Position numbers and translations under genes: made by a program | Source: Methanomassiliicoccaceae archaeon COG_1 | Lineage (GTDB): Archaea; Thermoplasmatota; Thermoplasmata; Methanomassiliicoccales; Methanomethylophilaceae | NCBI GenBank assembly: GCA_028561875.1 | Contig: JAQQTI010000001.1 | Span: 558,001 to 622,000 of the forward strand | DNA: 64,000 nt | Reading direction: 5' to 3' | Shown here: positions 6,027 through 61,750 of the stretch, piece after piece | Numbering within the stretch: position 1 is the first letter of the stretch | How the letters are laid out: every line of letters starts with the position of its first letter | Notes under the pieces: model-generated | Databases searched by the model: none | The model's input: the letters and a program-made list of their open reading frames with translations, nothing else | What the model was told of the DNA's origin: nothing

Positions 6027-9001
<2,975 letters not shown>

Positions 9002-27118: not shown

Positions 27119-30100
27119 TCAACGCACCCTCATCTTCCTCCACAGCGAGACGGCGAATATCGCGCAGAACATTATCACCAGCCCGACCTCCACCGTCACG
27201 AGCAGGGTCTGGTCCTTCTGATGCTCCGGCTCCGTGATGGGCCGCACGTTGTATTGGGCCCAGGATGAAAGAACGTCATCCGAGGCGTATATCGTGAAGG
27301 CGTCAACATCCACATCGGTGAACGCATTGTCGAACGATTCGAAATAATCGCAGTGGACCTCCAGTTCCGAAATCCCCTTGCAGTTGCCGAAGGCCCCGTT
27401 GCCTAACAGTCTCATGTTTTCCCCCAGCACTATGAATTCCATCACGGGGATGCCCTCGGAGACATAGAACGCGTATTCGCCTACGGACACCACGTTGTTA
27501 AGGTCCGCATACCGGAGTCCCGCGCAGTTGTAGAACGCCCTCTCCCCGATGGTTCCTACCCCGGCCGGAATGTTCAATTCCGTAAGTCTGGAACAGCCCC
27601 CGAAACAATCCGCGGGTATTGAGGCCAGCCCCTTGCCCAGAACAACGTTGGATAGGCTGGTACACCCATGGAACGCACCGCTGCCGACGGCCCTGACCGA
27701 GTTCGGGACGGCGAAACGCGTGAATGCTTTCCCGTCGCACCCGGAAAATGCGCCGCACCCTATGAACACCAGTTCGCCGGAGAATGAGATGCTGGAAAGC
27801 GACCTGCATTCCGCGAAGGCCCGGTCCCATACGTATGCCACGGAGTCGGCCAGATACAGGCTGGACAGAACGGAACCGTGGAAGGCGCTTGTCTGAATCC
27901 CCCTGATGTGGCCGTTGAGCTCCAACGTTCCGAGAGCGTACGGGTCCGCGAACGCGAGCGCGTACCTGTCCTTGATCCCCGGGTCCCTGGAGAACATGAA
28001 TGCCGCATCCCCGATCTGGGTCACGGGATATGATGTTCCCCCGACCGATACCGAGCCGGGAACCTGCACGTACGGCCCGGAGACGTACCTGTGGATGACG
28101 GCCTCGTCGTCCACTACGTAGTAGGTGAAGCAGAAGGTGTCCTTGCGGTAGGACCCGTTGTACTCGTGAAGGACCAGATCGTCGCTGCCTGCAGACCAGC
28201 CGGCCGCGTCGGGGCGATGGTGCACCCCGACCCCCGCGGGGGCCACGCCTTCGAACACCGGGGAATCCCCCAGGAAATAAACGTTCTTAATCCCGGTGTT
28301 GGACCAGATGAGCCAGGAGAAGTATTTCACCGTCACGGGGATCACCGCGCTTGTCGCGTTGACGACTCCGTTCAACGCCCCCGCATCCATCTTGTAAAGG
28401 GTGCATCCTCCGAAGGACGAGGGGACGAACAGGGTCCCGCCCATGTTGTCCAAGGTCATCGATACCAGCGTAGCGCTGCCATCGATCCCGGACCCCTCGG
28501 TCGTGTATTCGGCATCCCCGTACGGACAGGTCACGATCTGCCTGACCGACACGTCGTCGGTGGTCCCGACCGCGTAAAACTTCATCAGGTCCGTGCTGAA
28601 CCTCACGTATCTTCCGTCATACGACGGTTCTATATGGGTCGTAGACCCCGCGGGAGATATGTTCCAAACATCGGCATGCACGCCTTTTCCCAATTCCAGA
28701 AGCAGAGCGATGTCGGCCGTGACCCCCCGGGGCTTCAGGTCCATCACGGAGGCCCCGTCCACGCGGAGATTGAGGCGGTAGAATTTGCTGTAGTTGATCT
28801 TCTTCAGAGCGGAAGAGATTTTCACGTTGAGGGGACCGTTCTGGACCGAAAATGTCAGCTCATCGCCGTCCCCGATGACCGCCAGCATCGAGGACAGGCT
28901 CGCATAGAACGAACCGCGGGGGACCGTCAGGACCGCTTCGGCGTCGCCGCCGTGGACGGCGATCAGGTTGGCGATGGACTCCCTACCGACGGATATCGCA
29001 GTGGCGTCGGGATACTGTGACAGGTCGCATACGACGACCGTCCCATCATACTTAGCTGCATTATGTGCCAGTTCCTCCGTGAACGATACGGTTACGGTAT
29101 CCCCCGACATGTTGTTCTCGGCATCGCGTACCGCATCGTAATCGCCTGTCACCCTCGAGACGTATACCGTGGTGTCCCCGACCACGATGTAGTTGGTGTC
29201 ATATTCCTTGGCGAGGGAGGGGTCGCGGTACATCTTCGCCAGGGCGGACCCGCGGAACACGTCCAGAGGAAGCGTCCCCCCTATGGAAGACCCGTATTTT
29301 GCAGAATAGGTGCCGACCGTGCGGTCCCCCTCCTTGAGAGTGAGTAGGTATTCCCTTGCCTCGGGTTCGAAGTACGCGTAGGCATAGGTCGTTCCGGTTA
29401 TGTTCCCGAGGTCGACCCGGACGTAATTGTTGGGCGTGAGGCTCCACCCTCTGAAATTGTACTGATACCTTACCGTCGGTTCTCTGTATGGGGTCGGAGG
29501 CGTCACGGCCGCAGACCCGTATCCCGCGGACACCGTGTCGATGGGGGAACGGTCGTAGTTGAAGAACTTCACGTCGTAGGAACGTACGACCTGGGTGAAC
29601 ACCGGCCTTGTCTCGGTGTCTTCCGTGACCGATTCCAGGTCCTTGTCCCAGCGTTCGAATACGTAGTCGTACTGCTGTGTGCTCACCTTGCTCGGTATGC
29701 CCGAATACGTCGCCGCGGAACCGGGCACCACGTACTCCTTCCTTATGAACTGTCCGCTTTCGGTGAGATACGTGATGCACTTCATCCCGGGGGTGATGTC
29801 GACGAATGACGCGGTGAACGTGGTGTCCGAGGTTATCGCGCGGGTCGTGTCCCCCCATCCGACGAACCCCTTGCCCGCGGCGACAGGCTCCTCTATTTCG
29901 GTCATGTCGACCTGTTCGCCGTATTTCACCTTCTGCGATTTCCAAACGGTCCCGTTCCCCAGTTTGAAGTCCACCGTGAGTATGTTCTTCATGCAGACTA
30001 TCTCGTCGGTATCCGGATTGGGCTCCGGGCCCCCCTTGTCGATGATGTACCCGTCGCCATACGGGTCGGGCGTGGAGATCAGATATATGCACTCGATGTA

Positions 30101-30916
30101 CGGATACACGGCGGGATCGTAATATCCCAGGGTCCAGTCATTGAACGACCACCGGTGGTCGACCCAGCAGAACTGGTTCCAAAACGCCCACACGCTGTCC
30201 CCGAGATGGTCGTTCTTCAGACCGAACATGACGTTGATCCAATCTGCCACGTCGGTCCCCGCCCCGGCATTCCCGGTATAGGTCTCGATCTCCCCCGGCC
30301 AGTTGGCCTCTATCGCGTTACGGAGAACGGCGCCCATGCTGGAGCCCTCCCCCCTGATCCAGAATCCCCTTTCCCTTATCTCGGAAGTGAACACCCCCCT
30401 CACGTGCTCGTTATCCGGGGAGTAACCGTTGGCGAACCTGATGAAGATGTATCCCGTGGATACGGGTTCGAAGTCGGGCACGGAGTAGACGTTGGTGCCA
30501 TTGAGGTTGGACAGTTTGGAGAGGGTGACGCAGTATGTGGTGCCCGGCATCATCTTGCCGTCGGACGAAGCGTTGAACGCCTGTACGCCCCAGCCGGAGT
30601 TCCCCGCCGGAAGCCATTGGAACACCCTCCAATACTGGCCGTCCCCCGGGGTGCGCCCGTCCACCGACAGTATGCCGGTCCTCGTCGGGTTCAACTCCAT
30701 TTCGCGGTGCTGGTCCGACAGCGCCTTGACTATGGCGCCCCTGACGGTCTGCACGCCGTCCACGGTCGACTTGGTATACGTTCCGTCCGGGTCGAGGATG
30801 TACACGTTCACGTTATCGCATATTGCCGCAGAGGACTCGCCAGAGTCGTCGACCGAGATCAGAGCGGCTGCCGCCACTATCGCAAAGGATGACAGTACCA
30901 GCAATGACCTTCTCAT
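27119..30916 (-). CDS. Surface protein with DUF4430-like, InlB-type and LRR_5 repeats, C-terminally anchored
   Basis: 1,265 residues. Signal peptide MRRSLLVLSSFAIVAAAALI; two DUF4430/transcobalamin-like segments, about residues 32-150 (TVRGAIVKAL, YWRVFQWLPAGNSGW) and 160-290 (DVADWINVMFGLKND, VWAFWNQF, WSFNDWTLGYYDP); InlB-type repeats about 310-540 (GKGFVGWGDTT; YQYNFRGWSLTPNN); BspA-like LRR_5 units about 965-1205 (GSGAFHGCTSLSNVVLGKG; GERAFYNCAGLRYADL); and one C-terminal membrane helix with WRKMRVR. Starts 4 nt after the ATPase stop, so it is the last gene of the 43.2-27.1 kb co-directional run. Its place in a transporter operon suggests a surface receptor or ligand-trapping role. Confidence 0.8.
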   Translation of the reverse strand: MRRSLLVLSSFAIVAAAALISVDDSGESSAAICDNVNVYILDPDGTYTKSTVDGVQTVRGAIVKALSDQHREMELNPTRTGILSVDGRTPGDGQYWRVFQWLPAGNSGWGVQAFNASSDGKMMPGTTYCVTLSKLSNLNGTNVYSVPDFEPVSTGYIFIRFANGYSPDNEHVRGVFTSEIRERGFWIRGEGSSMGAVLRNAIEANWPGEIETYTGNAGAGTDVADWINVMFGLKNDHLGDSVWAFWNQFCWVDHRWSFNDWTLGYYDPAVYPYIECIYLISTPDPYGDGYIIDKGGPEPNPDTDEIVCMKNILTVDFKLGNGTVWKSQKVKYGEQVDMTEIEEPVAAGKGFVGWGDTTRAITSDTTFTASFVDITPGMKCITYLTESGQFIRKEYVVPGSAATYSGIPSKVSTQQYDYVFERWDKDLESVTEDTETRPVFTQVVRSYDVKFFNYDRSPIDTVSAGYGSAAVTPPTPYREPTVRYQYNFRGWSLTPNNYVRVDLGNITGTTYAYAYFEPEAREYLLTLKEGDRTVGTYSAKYGSSIGGTLPLDVFRGSALAKMYRDPSLAKEYDTNYIVVGDTTVYVSRVTGDYDAVRDAENNMSGDTVTVSFTEELAHNAAKYDGTVVVCDLSQYPDATAISVGRESIANLIAVHGGDAEAVLTVPRGSFYASLSSMLAVIGDGDELTFSVQNGPLNVKISSALKKINYSKFYRLNLRVDGASVMDLKPRGVTADIALLLELGKGVHADVWNISPAGSTTHIEPSYDGRYVRFSTDLMKFYAVGTTDDVSVRQIVTCPYGDAEYTTEGSGIDGSATLVSMTLDNMGGTLFVPSSFGGCTLYKMDAGALNGVVNATSAVIPVTVKYFSWLIWSNTGIKNVYFLGDSPVFEGVAPAGVGVHHRPDAAGWSAGSDDLVLHEYNGSYRKDTFCFTYYVVDDEAVIHRYVSGPYVQVPGSVSVGGTSYPVTQIGDAAFMFSRDPGIKDRYALAFADPYALGTLELNGHIRGIQTSAFHGSVLSSLYLADSVAYVWDRAFAECRSLSSISFSGELVFIGCGAFSGCDGKAFTRFAVPNSVRAVGSGAFHGCTSLSNVVLGKGLASIPADCFGGCSRLTELNIPAGVGTIGERAFYNCAGLRYADLNNVVSVGEYAFYVSEGIPVMEFIVLGENMRLLGNGAFGNCKGISELEVHCDYFESFDNAFTDVDVDAFTIYASDDVLSSWAQYNVRPITEPEHQKDQTLLVTVEVGLVIMFCAIFAVSLWRKMRVR

Positions 30917-30920
30917 GGTA

Positions 30921-31754
30921 TCACTTGATGTACCTCTTGGGCAGTACGTATATCTCTCCGTCGACGTCGAGGCCGACGCGCGCGTCCACTTCGTAGACCT
31001 CCCTTATCAGCTCCTCGGTGATCACCTTCTTGGGGTCCCCAATGGTTACGATGCCTCCCCGTTTCATGATGATGCAGACGTCGCAGTACCTTGCCATGAG
31101 GGAGATGTCGTGCTCGGCCACCAGAACGGTCATGTCCTTGCGGGCCACGTTCTGGAGGTATTCCATCACCTCCAGTTTGTATTTCATGTCGAGATGGGAC
31201 GTGGGTTCGTCGACGAGCATGAGTTTCGGTTCCTGGACATAGGCTTTGGCGATGAGGGCGCGCTGTCTCTCCCCTGACGAGCAGAGCGCTACCGATTTCC
31301 TTCTGAGATGATCGATGCCGAACGTTCTCAGCGCCTCGCGCACGACCCTTTCGTCCTCGGGCGATTCCCACCAGACCCTGTTGACGAAGGGATACCTCCC
31401 CAGCATCACGAACTCCATGACCGTGGAGCCGAAAAGCGGCCCGGATTCCGCAGGTACGCTGGCCACCATCTTGGCGAGGTCCTTGGTTCCGAAGCAGGCC
31501 GTGTCCCGGCCGTCCAGGAGGATTCTTCCCGTCCATTTCGTGTGCATCTTGGAGATGCAATTCATCATGGTCGACTTGCCGCACCCGTTGGGCCCGATGA
31601 GGCCCACGAGAAGGCCCTTGAGAAGGGAGAAGTCGACGTGGTGCAGGGCCTCGAAGCCGTCGAAGTTTATGCACAGGTCTTCCACCCTCAACAGCTCTTC
31701 CCCCGTTGGGCCGCCGACGGAGTTCCGGACGTTGGCCAAGGATTCATCCGTCAT
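30921..31754 (-). CDS. ABC transporter ATP-binding protein, BtuD/FecE family
   Basis: 277 residues. Walker A GPNGCGKST, Walker B LMLVDEPTSHLD and switch His in VAEHDISLM are canonical. The ABC signature reads LCSSGERQRALIAKA, with Ser-Ser-Gly-Glu instead of Ser-Gly-Gly-Gln. The gene overlaps the fused permease gene by 11 nt and is followed after 4 nt by the large surface protein. The second BtuD/FecE-like ATPase in the window, clearly different in sequence from the one at 25.6 kb. Confidence 0.92.
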   Translation of the reverse strand: MTDESLANVRNSVGGPTGEELLRVEDLCINFDGFEALHHVDFSLLKGLLVGLIGPNGCGKSTMMNCISKMHTKWTGRILLDGRDTACFGTKDLAKMVASVPAESGPLFGSTVMEFVMLGRYPFVNRVWWESPEDERVVREALRTFGIDHLRRKSVALCSSGERQRALIAKAYVQEPKLMLVDEPTSHLDMKYKLEVMEYLQNVARKDMTVLVAEHDISLMARYCDVCIIMKRGGIVTIGDPKKVITEELIREVYEVDARVGLDVDGEIYVLPKRYIK

Positions 31755-34700
31755 AGTCGCGCCCCCTTCTGACGAGCATGTATGCGAACACCGGGGTGCC
31801 TATCAGCGCCGTCACCGCGCCCACGGGGATCTCCAGCGGGGCGATCACCACCCTTGCCACGAGGTCCGCGAACAGCATCAGGCAGGCCCCCAGGACCATC
31901 GATGCGGGCATTATGAGGCGGTGGTCGCCCCCCATCAGCATGCGGCACGCGTGCGGTATCACCAGCCCGACGAACCCGATGACCCCGACGAACGCGACGC
32001 AGACCGAGGTGAGTATGGAGGCGACGACCATGGTCTCGGCCTTGAACAGCCTGACGTTCAAACCTAGCTGCCTTGCCTGGTCCTCCCCGCTCATGAAGAG
32101 GTTGAACTCCCTGGCCCAAAGCATCGAGATGAACGAGATCGCCAAGGCCGGAATGAGCACCAGGAACGCGTTCTCCCAGGTGATGTTCGCGAAGGACCCG
32201 TAAAGCCACCACATGACGTTGGTAAGGTTGTCCTTCTCCAGGGAAAGGAAGATCGTCTGGACCGAGGTGAACGCGAAACCGACGATGGTCCCGGCAAGGA
32301 TGTAGTTGGTGGCGGAACCGCCCGCGCTTTCGGCCACCGTAAGCGTTATGCCGAAGGCGATGAGGCCCCCTACGATGGCCGCGACCGGGATTATGTAGTT
32401 GCTGTAATCGCTGAGCGCCGACATGGAGACGCCCATCACGACGATGGTGATGGCGAAGCACCCCGCACCGGAGGACACGCCGGTGATGTAGGGGTCCACC
32501 AAGGGATTCCTGATGAGCGCCTGGAACATACACCCTGCGATCGCAAGCCCCGCCCCGACCCCTATGGCGGCTATCGTCCTGGGAAGACGGGACTGGAAGA
32601 TGTACAGTTCCGCTGTGTCGAGGCCGTGCCCGCCCTTGCCTATCGCGGATGCGAGGGAGGCCAGGGCATCGCTGATGGGGATGATCCCCCCCGAAGAGAT
32701 GGATATGGAAACGGAGAACATCACCGCGCAGATGAAAACGCCCACCAGAAGGATGATGAGGAAACGTCTGCGCTTTATCGAGATCTCGCTCCCATCGTCA
32801 TCGTCCGGGACCATGTCGTCCCTCATCCCGTCGTACCCTTTCCTGAGCGTATCGAAAAAACCCCTGAGCGGGCCTCTCCCCCCGGGCGCGGGCCTGCCCC
32901 GCGATGCGGGCGCCGCCCGATCTGCCTGCCCGCCGGCACTAGTGTTTCCCGACGGCTCGTCTTCCTCGTTCATGCGTTCGCTTCCTCTAATGTCCCGACC
33001 TCGGCGTCTGTACGCGTACACCGCCACCGCCAAAACGGCTAACACCATGGCTGCGGTGGCAATCCATGACAGATGTGCCAGACCTTCGGATTCGTAATCA
33101 ATCTCGGAACTGCCGGAACGTTCACTCCCCGATTTTTCGGATATGACGTAGACCGCCCCGTAGTCGTTCCCGACCAGCACCTTGCCGTCAACCACGGTGG
33201 GGGAGCACATGCTGTAGGCGTTCCCGCTGTAGGGTGACACCTTGCACTTCCAGACGACGACGCCCGTATCCGCGTCGAGACACCAGACGTTGCCCCCGTT
33301 GGCATCCTCGGTGCCCGGGGAGTAATCCATGCTGTAGACCCTCCCTCCGCAGTAGGTGGTGCCGCCCGTGGAGAGCGCGTCCGTCTGCCTGCACCACAGC
33401 ATGCTGCCGTCCGACACCCACATTGAAAGGTATCCGCTCACCAGCTCCACATCCCGGCCGGAAACCGAGTCCCTGACCCTCTGGTCCGGGAGGGCGGAGA
33501 CGTACGAATAGAACCTGTCCCCGGACACCACGGGCCTCCCGCACCTGATGTCCTGTTTCCAGATCACGGAGCCGTCCGACACGCTGACCAGCATGATGCC
33601 TCCGCCCGCGGAGCTCATCTCGCCGCCGGAGTAGCACACCAGCGCCCTTCCCCCGGGGCACAGGGTGATGGAGGTCGCCTGCCCCACCATGTTCCCATGC
33701 GAATCCGTGACCTTCTGGTCCCAGATCCCCGTTCCCGTAAGGGCGTCCACGCAGACCAGCCCGCCGCCATAGTTCCCTATCATGACGCATTTCTTCCCCC
33801 CCTGGTCGCAGATCACGGGCGGATGGTAGTAGAAGCACCCCCTTATCTGACGGCCCGGGTCATCGGATGCCCAGCCCGGCACGTAATTCCAGATCTCCTT
33901 GAATCCCTTCTCGCGGTCCACGGAGAAACACCTCAGGAGACCGTCCGAGGTGCCGAAGTACAGGGCGCCGGAATCGTAGACTGCGTTCGTTATCCCACCC
34001 TCCGAATGTATCCTGTCTTTGGATACCGACGGGTCGGCCTTCCTGGGGATGTACGTGGTAAGCTTGGAGCCCTTGCACATGTCGCCGTCGTCGCCGGAGG
34101 GGGCGAGCTCCGCCAGCGCCTCGCCGGTGAAACGGTCGAGACAATATATGTGCCAGTTACCCGAGGTCACGACTATCATGTTGCCGATGATGACCGGCGT
34201 GGTTATCTCGATCCTGTCCGGCCCCGAATACGTGACGGACCACAGCAGCTCCCTGTTGACGGGGTCGAGGCAGTTGATCCTCGCCAGGGAGTCCATCCCC
34301 ACCGCGCCGAACTTTCCGGAGACGGTATGGTAGATCATGCCGTCGGAATAAAGGACGGAGGCATCGACGGCACCGACGTACGTGTTGGCCCATTCCAGCG
34401 GCGTGGCGACCTTCTCCGGCCCGCGGGACATGCTCACCCCTGAGGAGGAGGAATCCCCGCGGTAGGAGGTCCATACCTCCCTGTAGTCGGGATTCGGGGC
34501 GGGGATTACCGTATCGTTGGGGAAATACCCCAAAGCCACCGAACCGCCGACGTACCTGTCGGTCACGTCGGTCGTGAGGAACTCCCATTCCACCGTGTTC
34601 CACGAATACACGCGCCAGTGGCAGGCCTGCCTGTTGACGCCGGTGCCGACCGTCACCTCCGAGACCCCGTCCACCGAGAGGACCGTCCTCTCTTCCCCCC

Positions 34701-34923
34701 TGTCCCCGAACGCGACACGCGTCCCTAACGTGGCGGAGAGCATGGCCCCGACCGTGTTCCCGGGAACGATGTCCTTCCACTCGGTGTGCCCGTTGCCGAA
34801 ATCCACGAGGAGGGCGTCGGCGGCCTCTTCCGACGGGCCCTCGGCAGAGGAGCCCCCGGCCGCCAGCGGCATGGAACAGACCGTCAGCAGCACGGACAGG
34901 ACGACCGTCATTCCATTTGCCAT
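31744..34923 (-). CDS. Extracellular DUF4430-like/beta-propeller region fused to BtuC/FecCD permease
   Basis: 1,059 residues in one uninterrupted frame. Signal peptide (1-28); DUF4430-like domain about 30-140 (TVGAMLSATLG, CHWRVYSWNTVEWEF); PQQ-type beta-propeller about 160-600 (WANTYVGAVDASVLYSDGMI; GGGLVCVDALTGTGIWDQKV; VWCLDADTGVVVWKCKV); a first membrane helix near 625-645; a charged, Pro/Gly-rich linker; then from about 720 a complete FecCD permease (QSRLPRTIAAIGVGAGLAIAG; QALIRNPLVDPYITGVSSGA; GFVGLVIPHACR; FADLVARVV). A Met at residue 651 (ATG 32971-32973) has GAGG upstream, so a separate permease from internal initiation is possible. It overlaps the binding-protein gene by 16 nt and the ATPase by 11 nt. 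Confidence 0.85.
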   Translation of the reverse strand: MANGMTVVLSVLLTVCSMPLAAGGSSAEGPSEEAADALLVDFGNGHTEWKDIVPGNTVGAMLSATLGTRVAFGDRGEERTVLSVDGVSEVTVGTGVNRQACHWRVYSWNTVEWEFLTTDVTDRYVGGSVALGYFPNDTVIPAPNPDYREVWTSYRGDSSSSGVSMSRGPEKVATPLEWANTYVGAVDASVLYSDGMIYHTVSGKFGAVGMDSLARINCLDPVNRELLWSVTYSGPDRIEITTPVIIGNMIVVTSGNWHIYCLDRFTGEALAELAPSGDDGDMCKGSKLTTYIPRKADPSVSKDRIHSEGGITNAVYDSGALYFGTSDGLLRCFSVDREKGFKEIWNYVPGWASDDPGRQIRGCFYYHPPVICDQGGKKCVMIGNYGGGLVCVDALTGTGIWDQKVTDSHGNMVGQATSITLCPGGRALVCYSGGEMSSAGGGIMLVSVSDGSVIWKQDIRCGRPVVSGDRFYSYVSALPDQRVRDSVSGRDVELVSGYLSMWVSDGSMLWCRQTDALSTGGTTYCGGRVYSMDYSPGTEDANGGNVWCLDADTGVVVWKCKVSPYSGNAYSMCSPTVVDGKVLVGNDYGAVYVISEKSGSERSGSSEIDYESEGLAHLSWIATAAMVLAVLAVAVYAYRRRGRDIRGSERMNEEDEPSGNTSAGGQADRAAPASRGRPAPGGRGPLRGFFDTLRKGYDGMRDDMVPDDDDGSEISIKRRRFLIILLVGVFICAVMFSVSISISSGGIIPISDALASLASAIGKGGHGLDTAELYIFQSRLPRTIAAIGVGAGLAIAGCMFQALIRNPLVDPYITGVSSGAGCFAITIVVMGVSMSALSDYSNYIIPVAAIVGGLIAFGITLTVAESAGGSATNYILAGTIVGFAFTSVQTIFLSLEKDNLTNVMWWLYGSFANITWENAFLVLIPALAISFISMLWAREFNLFMSGEDQARQLGLNVRLFKAETMVVASILTSVCVAFVGVIGFVGLVIPHACRMLMGGDHRLIMPASMVLGACLMLFADLVARVVIAPLEIPVGAVTALIGTPVFAYMLVRRGRDYDG

Positions 34924-36323
34924 TCCAGCAACCCCTGTGCTTTGACATAGCGGAGGTATCCGTTATCCTGGTCGTTGTACGAATTGTTGTAGTATTTCAC
35001 CCCGACGACGTCCGTCGGGTCCGCGGCCATGAACGACCCGGGGTCCATTATCTTGGCCAGCAGTTCCAATGACTCCGGGAGCCTGGCACCCGCTCTGGAG
35101 AGCAGGCTCGCGGCGTCGCCCGAGAAGACGTAGACCTCGCCGTTCTCGTACGCGGGGGTCCTCTTCCACATGTCATTGAAACGGGACAGCAGGGTGCGGT
35201 ACTCCCTCTGCGACGCGATCTCCTCCCCGTCGTAGATCACTATGATGATGTCGGGCTGCCTCTCGTACACTATCTCCTTGGAGACCATGAACCAGGAGCC
35301 GGAATCCCCGGCGAAGATGTTCTTCGCTCCCAATGACTCCACCATGCTCGTGATGTAGGTGCCGGAGCCCGCCGTGTAGGGGGAATCGCTCACCCCCAGC
35401 GATACGAACACCTTCCTGCCCTGGAGGTCGGCGATGCGACAGATGTTGTTTATGACTTCGGAAACGTCCGAGATGTAATCGTTGCCCCTTTGGGGGAACC
35501 CCAGCGCCGAGGCGCACATCCACAGGTTCTTCAGCAGATCGTCGGTATCGACCGCATCGTAGAGGACCACGCAGTTTATGCCGGATTTCCTGAACTTGTC
35601 CGCCATGGTGACGTGCTCCCCGGTACCTCCGTCCAGGAACACGATGTCGGGGTTCTCGGAGACGACTTTTTCGAAATTGGGGTCGGTATATCCCCCCACT
35701 ATGGATATCCTCCCGTTCTTCTGTCCGGACACCAGCCCCCTGGGGTAGTCGCTGTACCTGTCGGTACCGACGATGTAGTCCAATCCGCCCACCGCGCACA
35801 CCGTCTCGGTGACCGAGGGCGCCAGGGTCACGACCTTCAGCCTCCCGCCCAGGAGGTTCTTCCCCTCGGAGGCGTAACTGTAATAGGTGAACCCGGTCTG
35901 GTCCACGGCAGGCATCATTTCGCTGCCCGTACCGGTACGGGCCCATGAGACGACCCTCTCCCCGGAGACCACGTAGCTCCCGGGGTCCCCGACCTGCGTC
36001 CAGCCCCCGCCCGCGTCGAGGACGTACATGCCCCACTCCACGTTGAGGAGGCTGGGCTTGTTGTTGACGGAACGCACCGAGCCGTCCTCTTCCCTCACGA
36101 CTGGATACCCTCTCGTCGAACAGGCGGAGTCGAGGGCCTCGTCCCCGGTCATGCCCTGAGGGAAGTCCATCTCCACCCAGTCGACGTCGTAATAGGCGAA
36201 ATCGATCATCACCCCCTGCTTGGCATCGACCGAGTCCGCTGTAAAGCCTACCACTGAGACCGCGGTTACCGCGACCGTCGCGATGATGGCCGCGGAGATG
36301 AGTTTGACGGTGGACGCCTGCAT
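34908..36323 (-). CDS. BtuF-type substrate-binding protein with N-terminal DUF4430-like domain
   Basis: 471 residues. A signal sequence (1-28) precedes a DUF4430/transcobalamin-like domain, about 35-135 (VMIDFAYYDVDWVEM, then VEWGMYVLDAGGGWTQV and YVVSGERVVSWART). Residues about 155-440 are a helical-backbone binding protein of the cobalamin/siderophore class: VVTLAPSVTETVCAVGGLDY, VGTDRYSDYPRGL, VSENPDIVFLDGG, then a long helix and SLGAKNIFAGD. No lipobox is obvious. It starts 20 nt after the stop of the upstream surface-protein gene and overlaps the fused permease gene by 16 nt, so the three transporter parts are co-translated. Confidence 0.85.
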   Translation of the reverse strand: MQASTVKLISAAIIATVAVTAVSVVGFTADSVDAKQGVMIDFAYYDVDWVEMDFPQGMTGDEALDSACSTRGYPVVREEDGSVRSVNNKPSLLNVEWGMYVLDAGGGWTQVGDPGSYVVSGERVVSWARTGTGSEMMPAVDQTGFTYYSYASEGKNLLGGRLKVVTLAPSVTETVCAVGGLDYIVGTDRYSDYPRGLVSGQKNGRISIVGGYTDPNFEKVVSENPDIVFLDGGTGEHVTMADKFRKSGINCVVLYDAVDTDDLLKNLWMCASALGFPQRGNDYISDVSEVINNICRIADLQGRKVFVSLGVSDSPYTAGSGTYITSMVESLGAKNIFAGDSGSWFMVSKEIVYERQPDIIIVIYDGEEIASQREYRTLLSRFNDMWKRTPAYENGEVYVFSGDAASLLSRAGARLPESLELLAKIMDPGSFMAADPTDVVGVKYYNNSYNDQDNGYLRYVKAQGLLEWQME

Positions 36324-36343: not shown

Positions 36344-39300
36344 TCAGGCCCTTCTTCTAATTATAATCACCGCGCCCAGCAGCACCAGGGCCGCCGCGGC
36401 GCAATCTCCATGTAGATGGTCGCGTCGCCGCCGTTCCCGGAACCGCCGTCGGAGGAGGGGCCGGGAGGTCGGGAGAGGGTCGGAGGATTCCGACTCATAA
36501 CCGATCGCGTAGATGGACAGGTGGTCGGCGGCGAAGGACACGACGCCGTCTTTGAACGTCACACCGTCGGCGTAGGTCTTCTTGCCGTAGTCCCCGATCC
36601 TCCAGACCTTCAGCGTCTTGCCTTCCTGAACCTCGATGCCGCACGACACCGATAGGACGAACCTCCCGAAGTCGTGCTGCTGCGCCTCGCCGCACGTGAG
36701 CTCGACGGAGAAGACCTTCGCATCGCCGGCCGCGGATTGCTGCTTGGGCGTCATCTTGGCGCCCGGCTCGACGGAGAACCTCACGTTGCCTTCCGCCGAG
36801 GCCAGTTTCTTCAGGGAATCGGCGTTCAGCGTGATGGTTGCCGAGCCCGTGTCCATGACCATGACTGCCCCGGCGCCCGCCGCGGCGCCGATTGCTTTGG
36901 CGCTGATGATGGTGCCTGCGTTGACCCTTATCCTGTCCACGGAGGGGTCTTTCGAGAGCGCGCCCATCAGCCCGGATATGTCGACGGTGCTGTTCTCATC
37001 CATGTCGACCACGGCCGTGCCGTTCTCGCAGACGATGCCGAAATCCGCCAGCTTGCTGTCGTATGCCATCCTGGTGGCGGAACTGACGGGTACGTCGGAG
37101 CTGCCGACGTAGTGCTCGACGGTCACGATGGAGGTGTCGTACGAAGCGTACTCCGTCCTCTCGGTGCGGGTGATGTCGATGGTCCCTGCGAGCCGGTCCT
37201 CCGTGGATTCGGTCGAGGTGACCTTGACGACCCCGTCATCCTGCCTCGCCGTGACGGTCTCGGAAAAGTATCTGGTATCTGACTTCACCGCTCCTTTCTC
37301 TTCGAACCTCTCGGACCTCTCGACGATGTCCGCTTCCTGCCCGTCCATCGTGAGTCCCCTGCGTCTCGATTCGCTGACGTTCCTCTCGGACACGACGTTT
37401 CCGAGAGAATCCTTCACTGTCTCGGTGAAGGTCATATCCACCCCGGTCTCCGATTCCTCGGTCCTCTTCACGGTGTGCACCGTGCCGCCGTCATCCGTCG
37501 TATCTTCCTTCTCGGACAGGGTTACCGTCTTGCCGCCCTCGATCGTGACCTTGGGGAGAACGGTGACGGAAATGACGTACTGCCTGCCCTCGATCTCGAC
37601 GGTGATGTCGGCGGTCTTCTCCTTCAGACCGGTCACGCTTAACGTGTTCCCGTGTCTGCTGACGGAGATCACGCTGTCGTCGGAAACCGCGAACGTGGAG
37701 GACAGGTGCTCGGGGAGTTCGATGGTTATCACGGAGTCCCTGTTCACCTGTCTCAGGGGCTCGAACCTCACGAAGTCGTCCGAAGGTTTGGCATCCATGT
37801 AGAACCACGAGCGTCCGGCCGAGTCCCTCAGCGAGCCCTTGTCGCGGAACGACGCCTTCTTGTATTCGCCGTCGAAGTAGTACCATCCCTTTTCCCCGTC
37901 CTCCGGGAGGTCCATGGAGGATGACTTCTCCAGGAGCAGGACCTGGCGGAACGTGGATTCGGTGATCCCGTTCTTGTATACGCCTGAGTACGTCCCCTTC
38001 GAGGGGTTCGTAACGAGGGCCCATGCGTTCGTGACCTCGTTCAACCCGTATATGCGATAATCCTTATCGCCGATGGAGGCGTCCCGGCCTCTTATCTCAA
38101 TGGTCGGATGGAGCTTCTTCAGTACGTCCTGGACGTTCTTGCCGCATCCCGTTTCGGACTTTGCGAATTTGCCGTCCACGGTGATGACGTTGACGCGGTA
38201 TCTGTCCGCGGGGACGTAGCAGTCGATGTATCCGCTGTCGACGTAGAACAGCGTCTCGCCGTTGGGCCCCGCGCGGATGCACTGGCTGCACCAGTCGGTA
38301 CGTGCCATTTCCAGCCTATCGCAGGACGGTTCGAGCACCCATCCGCCGTCGGTCAGAGTGTCCGTGAACACGAACAGGGCCTGGCCGGACTTGTTGTAGG
38401 GGATGAGGTAGACGTGTACCTTCCCCTCGCCCGCGTGGGCGACGTTCACCACTATGCCGCCGTGGGTCATCATGCTGGGCGTGGCACATTTCGGGATCGG
38501 CTCCCCTCCCTCCCCTATGTCGTAAGCGATCATGCATGAGCCCCTGTCGTCGGAACCCCCCAGGGTGTCCGTGCCGAGGGCCCTCACGTTCAGGTACCCT
38601 CTGCCGTTGTAGATCACGAGCCCCGAGGCTATGCCGAGGAACTCCCGCCCGCTGGGGGTCTGGATGTTCTTGAAGGAGGGTTCTTCGAAACGCCCGCCGT
38701 CGAAATCGAACCTCACCCACATCAGTGACGACCTTTTGTCCTCCAGGCCCTGTATGACCCCGTCGAAGAGGCCCGCCACGTATGCGGTCAGGTAGAAGTA
38801 TCCGTCGTAATAGGTGAGCCATCCGTCGTCCCACGGCATGCCTTCGAACCCCGTCAGCCTGCATGTCACCGATTCTTCGGTCCGAAGGTTGAATGCCGTT
38901 ATCGCCCTGTATCCGTGGGGCCCCACCACCCTGTCGGCCTCCAGGAAGAAGAACCAGTCCCCTACGAACAGGACGTTGGAGAACTGCCCGTACTGCGCCC
39001 ACACCCTGTACGGCACCGTGCTGCTGAACAGGTTCATCTTCACGTTGTTGTCCAGGTCGCGATCGTCCTCCAAGGATGTCTTGTACATCGTGTAACGTCC
39101 GCTCCCCGCCGCCTGACATCCGTAGAAGAAGCCGTCATGGTAGGTGGCGAACGTCAGGTTCGCCGGGAGGTCGTAAAGGTGGTTGAGGTCGAGATCGTAC
39201 GCCTTGTGGCCGATCGTGTCGAACAGCACCCCGTTGCCGTAGCTGAGGTAATGGTAATAATTGTCGCTGGAAGCCTGTGAGAGCACGTAGTGGACGACCG

Positions 39301-39817
39301 TTCCGCTGTCGATTTCGAGCTGGTACAGCCTTCCGCCCGCGCGCACGTACGCGTAGTCCCCGACGATGAGCGGCGTGCAGGGCATCCCCGCCCACATCCC
39401 GCCGGTCATGTTCAGGGCCCCGCTTTTGAACGACCAGGCGAGGACCAGGTCGTCCCCAGGTTCGGGAAGGCCGTCCACGTCGACAACGTTTATCAGTTCC
39501 TGCGAGGTAGAGTAGTTGCGGACCCTGACGGAGATCGAGGCCGGGCCTTCGACCGAACGTAAGGCCATCTCGCTGCCGTCCGATGCGTAATTGGCCTTAC
39601 CGGACACATCCCATGCAATGAATTCGTAGCCCCTGTTCGGAATGAACTTCAAGGTGAGTTCCTTTGTGAACTCCCCCCCGCCGTATTCCAAGCCCGTGGT
39701 TTTATCGATGAGCCTTCCGTGGCTGTAGGAGACCTCGACGGTGTTGGCCGGGCCCGCATCGGACTCCGGGGACATCTGACACAGCATGAAGCCCGTCGAG
39801 ACCAGTGCGAACACCAA
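36344..39817 (-). CDS. Surface protein with beta-propeller and Thr-rich stalk, C-terminal membrane anchor
   Basis: 1,157 residues from a TTG at 39815-39817. Reading 12 codons further back gives a classic signal peptide (RTSRKSFTAIALVFALVSTG) directly behind AAGGAGGA, but its first codon is ATA (39851-39853), so the true start is uncertain. Residues about 100-500 are a beta-propeller paralogous to that of the 2,507-residue protein (AGMPCTPLIVGDYAYVRAGG here). Residues about 780-960 form a Thr/Glu/Ser-rich beta-stalk. A membrane helix with IIIRRRA ends the protein. Codons at about 36,400-36,470 read as Arg-rich sequence, while another frame gives a Gly/Ser linker, which suggests two compensating frameshifts. 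It lies in the co-directional run that leads into the transporter genes. Confidence 0.78.
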   Translation of the reverse strand: MVFALVSTGFMLCQMSPESDAGPANTVEVSYSHGRLIDKTTGLEYGGGEFTKELTLKFIPNRGYEFIAWDVSGKANYASDGSEMALRSVEGPASISVRVRNYSTSQELINVVDVDGLPEPGDDLVLAWSFKSGALNMTGGMWAGMPCTPLIVGDYAYVRAGGRLYQLEIDSGTVVHYVLSQASSDNYYHYLSYGNGVLFDTIGHKAYDLDLNHLYDLPANLTFATYHDGFFYGCQAAGSGRYTMYKTSLEDDRDLDNNVKMNLFSSTVPYRVWAQYGQFSNVLFVGDWFFFLEADRVVGPHGYRAITAFNLRTEESVTCRLTGFEGMPWDDGWLTYYDGYFYLTAYVAGLFDGVIQGLEDKRSSLMWVRFDFDGGRFEEPSFKNIQTPSGREFLGIASGLVIYNGRGYLNVRALGTDTLGGSDDRGSCMIAYDIGEGGEPIPKCATPSMMTHGGIVVNVAHAGEGKVHVYLIPYNKSGQALFVFTDTLTDGGWVLEPSCDRLEMARTDWCSQCIRAGPNGETLFYVDSGYIDCYVPADRYRVNVITVDGKFAKSETGCGKNVQDVLKKLHPTIEIRGRDASIGDKDYRIYGLNEVTNAWALVTNPSKGTYSGVYKNGITESTFRQVLLLEKSSSMDLPEDGEKGWYYFDGEYKKASFRDKGSLRDSAGRSWFYMDAKPSDDFVRFEPLRQVNRDSVITIELPEHLSSTFAVSDDSVISVSRHGNTLSVTGLKEKTADITVEIEGRQYVISVTVLPKVTIEGGKTVTLSEKEDTTDDGGTVHTVKRTEESETGVDMTFTETVKDSLGNVVSERNVSESRRRGLTMDGQEADIVERSERFEEKGAVKSDTRYFSETVTARQDDGVVKVTSTESTEDRLAGTIDITRTERTEYASYDTSIVTVEHYVGSSDVPVSSATRMAYDSKLADFGIVCENGTAVVDMDENSTVDISGLMGALSKDPSVDRIRVNAGTIISAKAIGAAAGAGAVMVMDTGSATITLNADSLKKLASAEGNVRFSVEPGAKMTPKQQSAAGDAKVFSVELTCGEAQQHDFGRFVLSVSCGIEVQEGKTLKVWRIGDYGKKTYADGVTFKDGVVSFAADHLSIYAIGYESESSDPLPTSRPLLRRRFRERRRRDHLHGDCAAAALVLLGAVIIIRRRA

Positions 39818-43345: not shown

Positions 43346-44227
43346 TCAGACGGGTATCCCGGGGAAGGGTGTAGGCATAGTATTCGCATCAGGGGATCCC
43401 CAGAAAATCATCCCTATGTACGACTGGTCGACAGTGGTTATAAAACCGAGGGTGGTGTTGTTGAAAGCCCACCCGTTGCCGACCGCATGATACTGTGCCC
43501 AGTAATACCAGACTCCACCGTCCCCAGAGTACGTGCCGAGTCCGAGGAGCTGGTTAATCCAACCGTAGCTGCCGAAGCTGTTGGACCATCCGTTGGTGGT
43601 CAGGTACCACTGGAGCGCGGAAAGCGCGGTGAATCCGTTATTGTTAGGGTCTGCCTGAGCCTTGGTTACAGAGACCCAAAATCCGGTATAGAACTGGGCC
43701 ATTGTGTACCCGCTAGGGAGGTTGACGTTTGCGGAGTTGTTAGCCTGAACGTGGGTATACGCATCCTCCTTAATCTGGAAGAAGAAATGGAACGTCTCCG
43801 CGGGCGTCCCGGGACTCTGGAAAACCACTATGACGGCAGACGCGTAGTAATTCGTCGTACCGGCAATGTAAACCTCTACTTCGATGGACCCCGTACCCGT
43901 TTTCGAATAAACGGTTGCCTGGTATCCCGTCGTGGTATACGTGTTCCCATTAGTGGGACTGAACGATACGAGATTGTTCCCGTCTCCGATGTCATTGAGC
44001 TTCCACCTGAGCCTGCTTGCACTAGTTCCAGAAGGCACGGTGCTGCTATCCAGGGAGAACGTAGCCGAGTTGTCCCCGCCGGTCACGTAAATCACGGCGC
44101 TCGACTTGTCAAGGCTGAGGTTGCTGTTTCCGGTCAGAGCGTCCGAATCCTCGGATGCCATGAAGGGAAAAGCACAGGTCACCATGATTATGGCGACCAA
44201 TCCCGGAAGAATCCATTGTTTGTGCAT
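43346..44227 (-). CDS. Secreted protein with C-terminal DUF4430/transcobalamin-like domain
   Basis: 293 residues from the ATG at 44225-44227, which has GAGG 6 nt upstream; a TTG at 44257 would add 10 residues. Signal peptide (WILPGLVAIIMVTCAFPFMA); an Ig-like beta region to about 140; and a C-terminal domain with FTALSALQWYLTTNGW, then SYGWINQLLGLGTYSGDGG, WYYWAQYHAVGNGWAFNN and TLGFI. These are the same ordered motifs as in the proteins at 18.5, 27.1, 31.7 and 34.9 kb. No anchor follows, so it is free or bound to a partner. A TATA element is at 44344-44355. Confidence 0.75.
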   Translation of the reverse strand: MHKQWILPGLVAIIMVTCAFPFMASEDSDALTGNSNLSLDKSSAVIYVTGGDNSATFSLDSSTVPSGTSASRLRWKLNDIGDGNNLVSFSPTNGNTYTTTGYQATVYSKTGTGSIEVEVYIAGTTNYYASAVIVVFQSPGTPAETFHFFFQIKEDAYTHVQANNSANVNLPSGYTMAQFYTGFWVSVTKAQADPNNNGFTALSALQWYLTTNGWSNSFGSYGWINQLLGLGTYSGDGGVWYYWAQYHAVGNGWAFNNTTLGFITTVDQSYIGMIFWGSPDANTMPTPFPGIPV

Positions 44228-44639
44228 GAATATCCTCTTCTTGGTGGTCGGCGTCAACCCTCATGCGTCTCCCGGCATCGTCGGAACGATCCCGTTCGTG
44301 ACGCGCTAGGCCGACAGCCACCATAAATTCTATCAACGTTTATCGTATAAATAACTTTGGAGCATGCATCCAACCATCCCGTAACGCCCAAATCTGCACA
44401 CTGTCAGGGAGGCCGCGAAGGTCCACACCTGGTAGCAGATTCTCCGAGGAGAAGCCCATCATCCAAACAGGACCGATCGGCGATGCCGATTGATTTTATA
44501 CGGCAGGCCGATTCATGAAACGGCGGAGTCCGCCCGAAGGTATGCGCAATGACGCCCCTGCCGGCCGCCCTCATCGGCTGGATGGTCCGTCACTTCAACC
44601 GGTTCAAGGAGATCCGGAGGAACTTATGACAGAATTAGG
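44228..44639. other. Intergenic region with promoter of the DUF4430-like secreted protein
   Basis: No gene is supported here. The minus-strand TATA box GTTATTTATACG at 44344-44355 sits about 115 nt before the secreted-protein ATG. The rest, including a TTTATACGG at 44,493-44,501, shows nothing else I can name. Confidence 0.5.

Positions 44640-60280: not shown

Positions 60281-61750
<1,470 letters not shown>

Follow-up and report, generated by a model that had tools for sequence, protein, structure and literature searches.

The btuF-like gene described here is carried by a Methanomethylophilaceae archaeon and lies at positions 34908–36323, on the minus strand, of the window, the 64,000-nucleotide stretch of DNA that was analyzed. 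It encodes a protein of 471 amino acids (aa), which the list of open reading frames (ORFs), Pfam, relatives, and a structural model divide into a membrane anchor, a transcobalamin-β-like domain, and a binding protein. The ORF is real, since its start and length are kept in relatives with 67–82% identity to the 471-aa protein. The N-terminal hydrophobic segment of approximately residues 3–25 (36249–36317, minus strand) was seen in a hydropathy scan and is a helix of residues 2–24 in the model. No lipobox was seen in this segment, which is predicted to be a signal anchor tethering the BtuF-like protein to the membrane. The transcobalamin-β/DUF4430-like domain, or N-domain, follows at residues 37–148 (35880–36215, minus strand) and was recognized by iterated search, modeling, fold search, and profile–profile comparison. 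Residues 164–400 (35124–35834, minus strand) are a helical-backbone binding protein (Peripla_BP_2), recognized by Pfam (105.9 bits against a cut-off of 27.5), a PDB sequence match, and fold search. These results agree with an earlier sequence-only reading, which had placed a DUF4430-like domain of about 100 residues before a helical-backbone binding protein; the domain spans about 110 residues. The full-length model has a mean pLDDT of 90.5. Because the NCBIfam BtuF equivalog cut-off (NF002894) is missed, at 73.7 versus 234 bits, the protein is named BtuF-like only.

The next gene, on the same strand, encodes a fused permease of 1059 aa (31744–34923), and the overlap of the two genes, which the earlier reading had also described, is 16 nucleotides (nt). 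The permease consists of an anchor, a DUF4430-like domain at residues 38–151 (34471–34812, minus strand; iterated search with reversed controls), a PQQ-like β-propeller region at residues 171–602 (33118–34413, minus strand; Pfam and profile searches), a transmembrane (TM) part, and a FecCD (BtuC-like) permease domain at residues 735–1052 (31768–32721, minus strand; Pfam). By sequence, the propeller profile lists BamB and designed PQQ-like propellers, and BtuG is not among the entries. The permease passes the FecCD cut-off and stays below that of the NCBIfam BtuC equivalog (NF003001; 217.9 versus 334 bits). Downstream lies a BtuD-like ABC ATPase of 277 aa (30921–31754, minus strand; Pfam and NCBIfam), which likewise does not reach the BtuD-type equivalog cut-off of NCBIfam. 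Four nt beyond the ATPase gene begins that of an adhesin-like protein of 1265 aa (27119–30916, minus strand), which contains two DUF4430-like domains (residues 38–130 and 185–285), a BspA-type leucine-rich repeat (LRR), and a hydrophobic C-terminal segment. The N-domain is thus also present on the permease and on the downstream adhesin-like protein, neither of which the earlier reading had mentioned. Since it recurs along the operon, the earlier term "two-site" understates the anatomy. One further DUF4430-like domain (residues 206–297) is found in a 303-aa protein 7 kb upstream (43346–44257, minus strand), whose link to the operon is uncertain.

A 1157-aa ORF with a TTG start (36344–39817) lies 20 nt upstream of btuF and has no Pfam or NCBIfam match. 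Toward its C-terminus it has an arginine-rich stretch that may reflect a change of frame. A DUF4430-like domain or propeller on this ORF was considered and rejected, as there is no DUF match and the E-value with the propeller profile is 0.012. Elsewhere in the window, the 23S and 16S rRNA genes (6056–8968 and 60281–61750, both on the minus strand) are about 51 kb apart and therefore do not form an rRNA operon.

A fold search with the full-length model barely tests the N-domain, and the N-domain was therefore modeled (AF2, residues 35–158, 51-row alignment) and searched alone. The model, with a mean pLDDT of 87.9 and a pTM of 0.82, has two strands and a helix followed by five strands. The best 14 of 50 rows in the fold search are haptocorrin, transcobalamin, and intrinsic factor, with Z-scores of 10.9–12.3 over 92–94 residues and an rmsd of 1.9–2.4 Å. 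The rows include 5np4 (Z 11.1), which according to its title is the isolated transcobalamin β domain solved with cyanocobalamin. The next row is R. gnavus RUMGNA_00854 at Z 9.7, followed by Raf-type and other ubiquitin-like folds at Z 7.1 or less. Foldseek ranks the same proteins at the top with a probability of 1.00 and an E-value of 8e-3, no match being below 0.001. The sequence-only reading had called for structure modeling and would have been overturned by a disordered N-terminus or an unrelated fold; both are ruled out by the full-length model, the domain model, and the fold search, according to which the N-domain folds independently and matches the β domains of haptocorrin, transcobalamin, and intrinsic factor.

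Searches of Pfam, NCBIfam, and PDB sequences gave no match to the N-domain; nor did a PF14478 search match anything in this genome, the N-domain falling short of the gathering score. As no library model detects it, the label DUF4430-like rests on the fold, profile–profile comparison, and iterated search. DUF4430 alignments built from PF14478 matches in the phylum gave 94.8% and 95.6% in two profile–profile comparisons with the N-domain, while 40 column-shuffled DUF4430 alignments reached at most 1.2%. An iterated search started from the BtuF domains had 4 matches to DUF4430 loci in round one and 29 by round four, finally covering 29 of 30 loci, and the best E-value of reversed sequences against the iterated profile was 0.32. 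In turn, the DUF4430 profile searched against the PDB finds haptocorrin first (E 0.004), intrinsic factor (0.006), and then transcobalamin-2 (0.12). The N-domain therefore shows profile-level homology to the transcobalamin-β/DUF4430 superfamily and, in the model, its β-domain fold. Its sequence marks it as a distant relative of DUF4430, not to be filed as a PF14478 member, and the VNG...G loop typical of DUF4430 is absent. In the alignment, D41 and W97 are invariant, and W108 and W127 nearly so.

A degenerate-pattern scan for close relatives gave 15 pattern matches at 8 loci, the named relatives being metagenome-assembled genomes of Methanomethylophilaceae/Thermoplasmata, several from rumen, colon, or faeces. 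At E ≤ 1e-10, 85 of 102 genomes of the host's GTDB family have a match, a few of these to the binding-protein half only; among the good-quality genomes of the family the proportion is 42 of 45, covering 13 of 14 genera. Across the order, a match to the full-length profile at E ≤ 1e-5 is present in 135 of 147 genomes. Beyond the family, among the matches listed, only those in G257 (two), G380, and G373 extend into the N-domain. One btuF-like match (G006:C1:91633–92970) is read through a single TAG. PylS is noted for this order (PMC10804542); with pyrrolysine made in the order, this TAG may be either a sense codon or a stop.

Forty-six loci were examined with their flanks (47 binding-protein ORFs). 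The N-domain is found on 42 of these ORFs; the other five (L059–L063) were included precisely because it was missing from their search matches. A FecCD gene is in view at 40 of the 42 domain-carrying BtuF ORFs, and directly after BtuF there is a domain-plus-propeller ORF in 36 of these 40 by the script filter, or 37 with L044, whose ORF was missed by the filter through its position. No such ORF occurs at the five loci chosen for a BtuF without the domain. The propeller head and the permease form one ORF in 27 of the 40 fused-BtuF loci. In the closest relatives of the window (L031, L032, L034, L035, and L037) they are on two ORFs, in L041 they lie in two frames, and three loci (L073, L075, and L077) have bare permeases only and no propeller ORF. 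In 34 of 42 cases the domain is encoded by at least one further ORF no more than 12 kb away, usually the gene before btuF, with one, two, or four tandem copies. Variants of the arrangement were also seen. Four tandem DUF4430-like domains precede btuF at L041:5146–6792 and L042:4852–6507, and three are on the permease ORF at L043:2904–6485. The 874-aa ORF at L064:7952–10576 is a tandem duplication, domain-BtuF-domain-BtuF, and in L046, L048, L052, and L065 the fused permease is succeeded by another FecCD permease, a bare one.

The sequence-only reading had proposed a phylogenetic search for the fusion; a single branch parts fused from unfused proteins. A FastTree was built from 96 binding-protein halves, 73 of them fused and 23 unfused, the latter hand-picked from genome searches. 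A single change of state suffices to account for the labels, and the unfused proteins form one group with a support of 0.994. As the tree is midpoint-rooted, it does not give the direction of this change, that is, gain or loss of the domain.

The DUF4430 proteins of sister lineages are encoded ahead of ECF transporters. Pfam and NCBIfam identify CbiQ, a double ECF ATPase, and an ECF S-component in L109 and L120, and CbiQ in L126, and ECF genes were recognized by similarity in L127, L129, L130, L132, and L139. A DUF4430-propeller protein stands beside ECF genes in L120/L142 (the same place), L126, L129, L130, L132, L133 (where the ATPase part alone of the transporter is in view), and L139. Propeller proteins also occur in L131, L134, L140 (without a DUF match), L141, and L143, with no recognized ECF genes in view, and examples of DUF4430 loci with no such transporter nearby, as probed with BtuFCD probes only, are L110, L112, and L116–L118. 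The ECF S-components of the sister loci match riboflavin/folate-type models weakly and no cobalamin model. An ECF system was rejected for the present genome because no CbiQ was found in its 86%-complete assembly. In genome G373 these three modules are joined in another way: one 1044-aa ORF (L138:484–3618) consists of a propeller, a DUF4430-like domain, and BtuF, beside FecCD and ATPase genes. That the modules recur beside importers of two classes is the chief contextual argument for giving them a role in ligand capture.

On balance, we favor the explanation that the btuF-like protein serves a corrinoid importer of the BtuFCD type as its binding-protein subunit and is equipped with a transcobalamin-type β-domain homologue, and that the β-like domains hold or cap the ligand and hand it on. 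Several carrier-type domains on the outer face of the putative importer suggest a built-in vitamin-capture chain; they would make up a surface device that captures corrinoids for BtuFCD. The anatomy, the fold, the homology, the single change of state, and the co-occurrence of the modules are observed. Beyond these, the ligand is very probably a corrinoid (vitamin B12 and relatives), and the β-like domains probably contact it, whereas a directed handover between sites falls slightly short of an even chance. The outward capture device would comprise the adhesin-like protein with its two domains, the domain-plus-propeller head of the permease, and the domain on the membrane-tethered BtuF by its cleft. 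The outward-facing β-like domains would meet the corrinoid first, and the permease head and the domain on the tethered BtuF would keep it local. The β-like domains would hold or cap it with modest affinity and then pass it to the BtuF cleft, from which BtuC would take it inward with the expenditure of ATP. That a β-like domain could contact the ligand on its own is credible, as the isolated transcobalamin β domain was solved with cyanocobalamin. In transcobalamin, the α and β domains sandwich the cobalamin between them (PMC4947154). A two-site handover is plausible, and a lid role, in which the domain may cover the ligand in the BtuF cleft like this sandwich, fits as well as serial handover.

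The main rival is docking without ligand contact, which we consider unlikely. It holds that the β-like domains no longer touch the ligand and instead bind each other or the propeller, which would hold BtuF at the permease and anchor the whole complex at the cell surface. Ubiquitin-like folds often bind proteins, the same domain is present on BtuF, permease, and adhesin-like protein of one operon, and the canonical VNG loop is lost, all of which would suit such a module. It would not account for the nearest folds being cobalamin binders, well separated from the remaining ubiquitin-like folds, nor for the invariant W97 and nearly invariant W108 and W127. The three loci with bare permeases, where BtuF is fused all the same, also argue against it.

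The same architecture could serve another ligand, such as haem, a siderophore, or another large cofactor; we regard this as improbable. Peripla_BP_2/FecCD systems are hard to separate by sequence (PMC2667541). The best PDB sequence match of the binding protein is 4m7o, a staphylococcal "iron-binding protein", the haem and F420-0 models of NCBIfam also match it, and its best structural row is the iron binder YiuA (Z 24.8, versus 22.1 for BtuF). The contacts of BtuF with the corrinoid are Y50, W66, W85, F162, F168, and W196 (PMC5269720). In a 58-row alignment of binding proteins, four of these six positions are aromatic: Y190 for Y50 (Y in 55 of 58), Y212 for W66 (Y in 48, F in 9, and W in 1), position 316 for F168 (W in 37, Y in 17, and F in 4, aromatic in 58 of 58), and W344 for W196 (58 of 58). 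The remaining two, D231 for W85 and L309 for F162, are lost, which counts against the corrinoid reading. BtuF with W66Y still binds cobalamin at 5.7 nM (PMC5269720). The glutamates E72 and E202 of BtuF correspond to E218 (57 of 58) and E350 (52 of 58, with Asp in 5). We take these two to match the glutamates through which BtuF docks to BtuC. Of the 23 unfused relatives, 16 retain Y190 and 13 retain W344, so these residues by themselves do not mark the fused clade. The preserved YSDYP segment of BtuF and the four aromatic contact positions speak against another ligand, as do the β domain of known B12 carriers and the six B12-binding domains in the genome. BtuFCD also marks this order (PMC10804542). 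The genome carries CbiJ, so the host may make part of its own corrin, and a search at gathering score gave no cobalamin riboswitch, either in the window or at five sister loci. Both points count against the favored reading, as do the missed equivalog cut-offs, the absent VNG loop, the three of 40 loci without a propeller ORF, and the lack of a cobalamin model among the matches of the ECF S-components. A spacer role, in which the domain would only raise the binding protein above the membrane or S-layer, is very unlikely. The position of the domain, behind the N-terminal anchor and ahead of the binding protein, would allow it, but a passive role sits poorly with invariant D41 and W97 and with the tandem arrays in which the domain occurs free-standing.

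The favored corrinoid-capture reading can be extended, more speculatively, to a cobalamin relay of gut and rumen methanogens, built from homologues of the animal B12-carrier domain, in which adhesin-like arrays, the propeller-bearing permease head, and BtuF would each hold the ligand in turn. The arrays might strip corrinoids from competing microbes or host carriers, and the module might be exchangeable between ECF-type and BtuFCD-type importers; we consider this doubtful. Gut methyl-reducing methanogens depend on corrinoid methyltransferases, and the operon gives concrete candidate parts for corrinoid capture. The β domain of the animal B12 carriers would be placed in a prokaryotic uptake setting, and small recombinant domains would then suffice to test a question about carrier origin and hand-over.

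Five BtuC clades and btuFCD genes adjoining adhesin-like proteins have been reported for this order, in which BtuC diversity is regarded as a mark of the order and the btuFCD cluster by adhesin-like proteins is suggested to be a specialized B12 capture mechanism (PMC10804542). The main text of that paper leaves these domains unnamed and makes no mention of a propeller, a fusion, transcobalamin, or intrinsic factor. Searches of open-access journal articles on DUF4430, including its combination with ECF transporters and riboswitches, on Methanomassiliicoccales BtuF/BtuC, and on transcobalamin showed no description of the fusion.

Among known systems, the β domain of haptocorrin, transcobalamin, and intrinsic factor resembles the N-domain in its fold and through a remote sequence link via DUF4430, a domain that stands at the C-terminus of transcobalamin-type proteins (PMC4350170). 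However, identity is approximately 10–13%, and the archaeal domain, known from sequence and model, is joined to a binding protein or permease and has no α domain in its chain; only a β-like domain precedes the binding protein, unlike the α domain followed by a β domain in one chain of the carriers. The mammalian parallel drawn by the sequence-only reading, in which intrinsic factor and transcobalamin pass cobalamin between related domains, holds for the β-domain likeness and is otherwise loose, as haptocorrin, intrinsic factor, and transcobalamin act one after another as complete carriers with receptors (PMC2667541), each with an α and a β domain around the ligand (for transcobalamin, PMC4947154). 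The DUF4430 (PF14478) proteins by ECF transporters of Thermoplasmatota share a homologous domain, a PQQ-like propeller, and a transporter in sister families, whereas here the domain is part of the BtuF and BtuC chains in an importer of the BtuFCD type, lies below Pfam detection, and lacks the VNG loop. E. coli BtuF/BtuCD has the same binding-protein fold, several of the same ligand and docking positions, and the same permease and ATPase families, but the archaeal system adds an extra domain, a membrane anchor, and a propeller head on the permease, has lost two contact residues, and scores below the equivalog cut-offs. Bacteroides BtuG, BtuH, and BtuJ likewise place a β-propeller and small domains outside a BtuFCD importer (PMC6143338, PMC13398666, PMC8941943). 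They are separate outer-membrane lipoproteins with BtuB and other small domains, whereas the archaeal domains are fused to the importer itself and the sequence of their propeller is similar to BamB/PQQ propellers.
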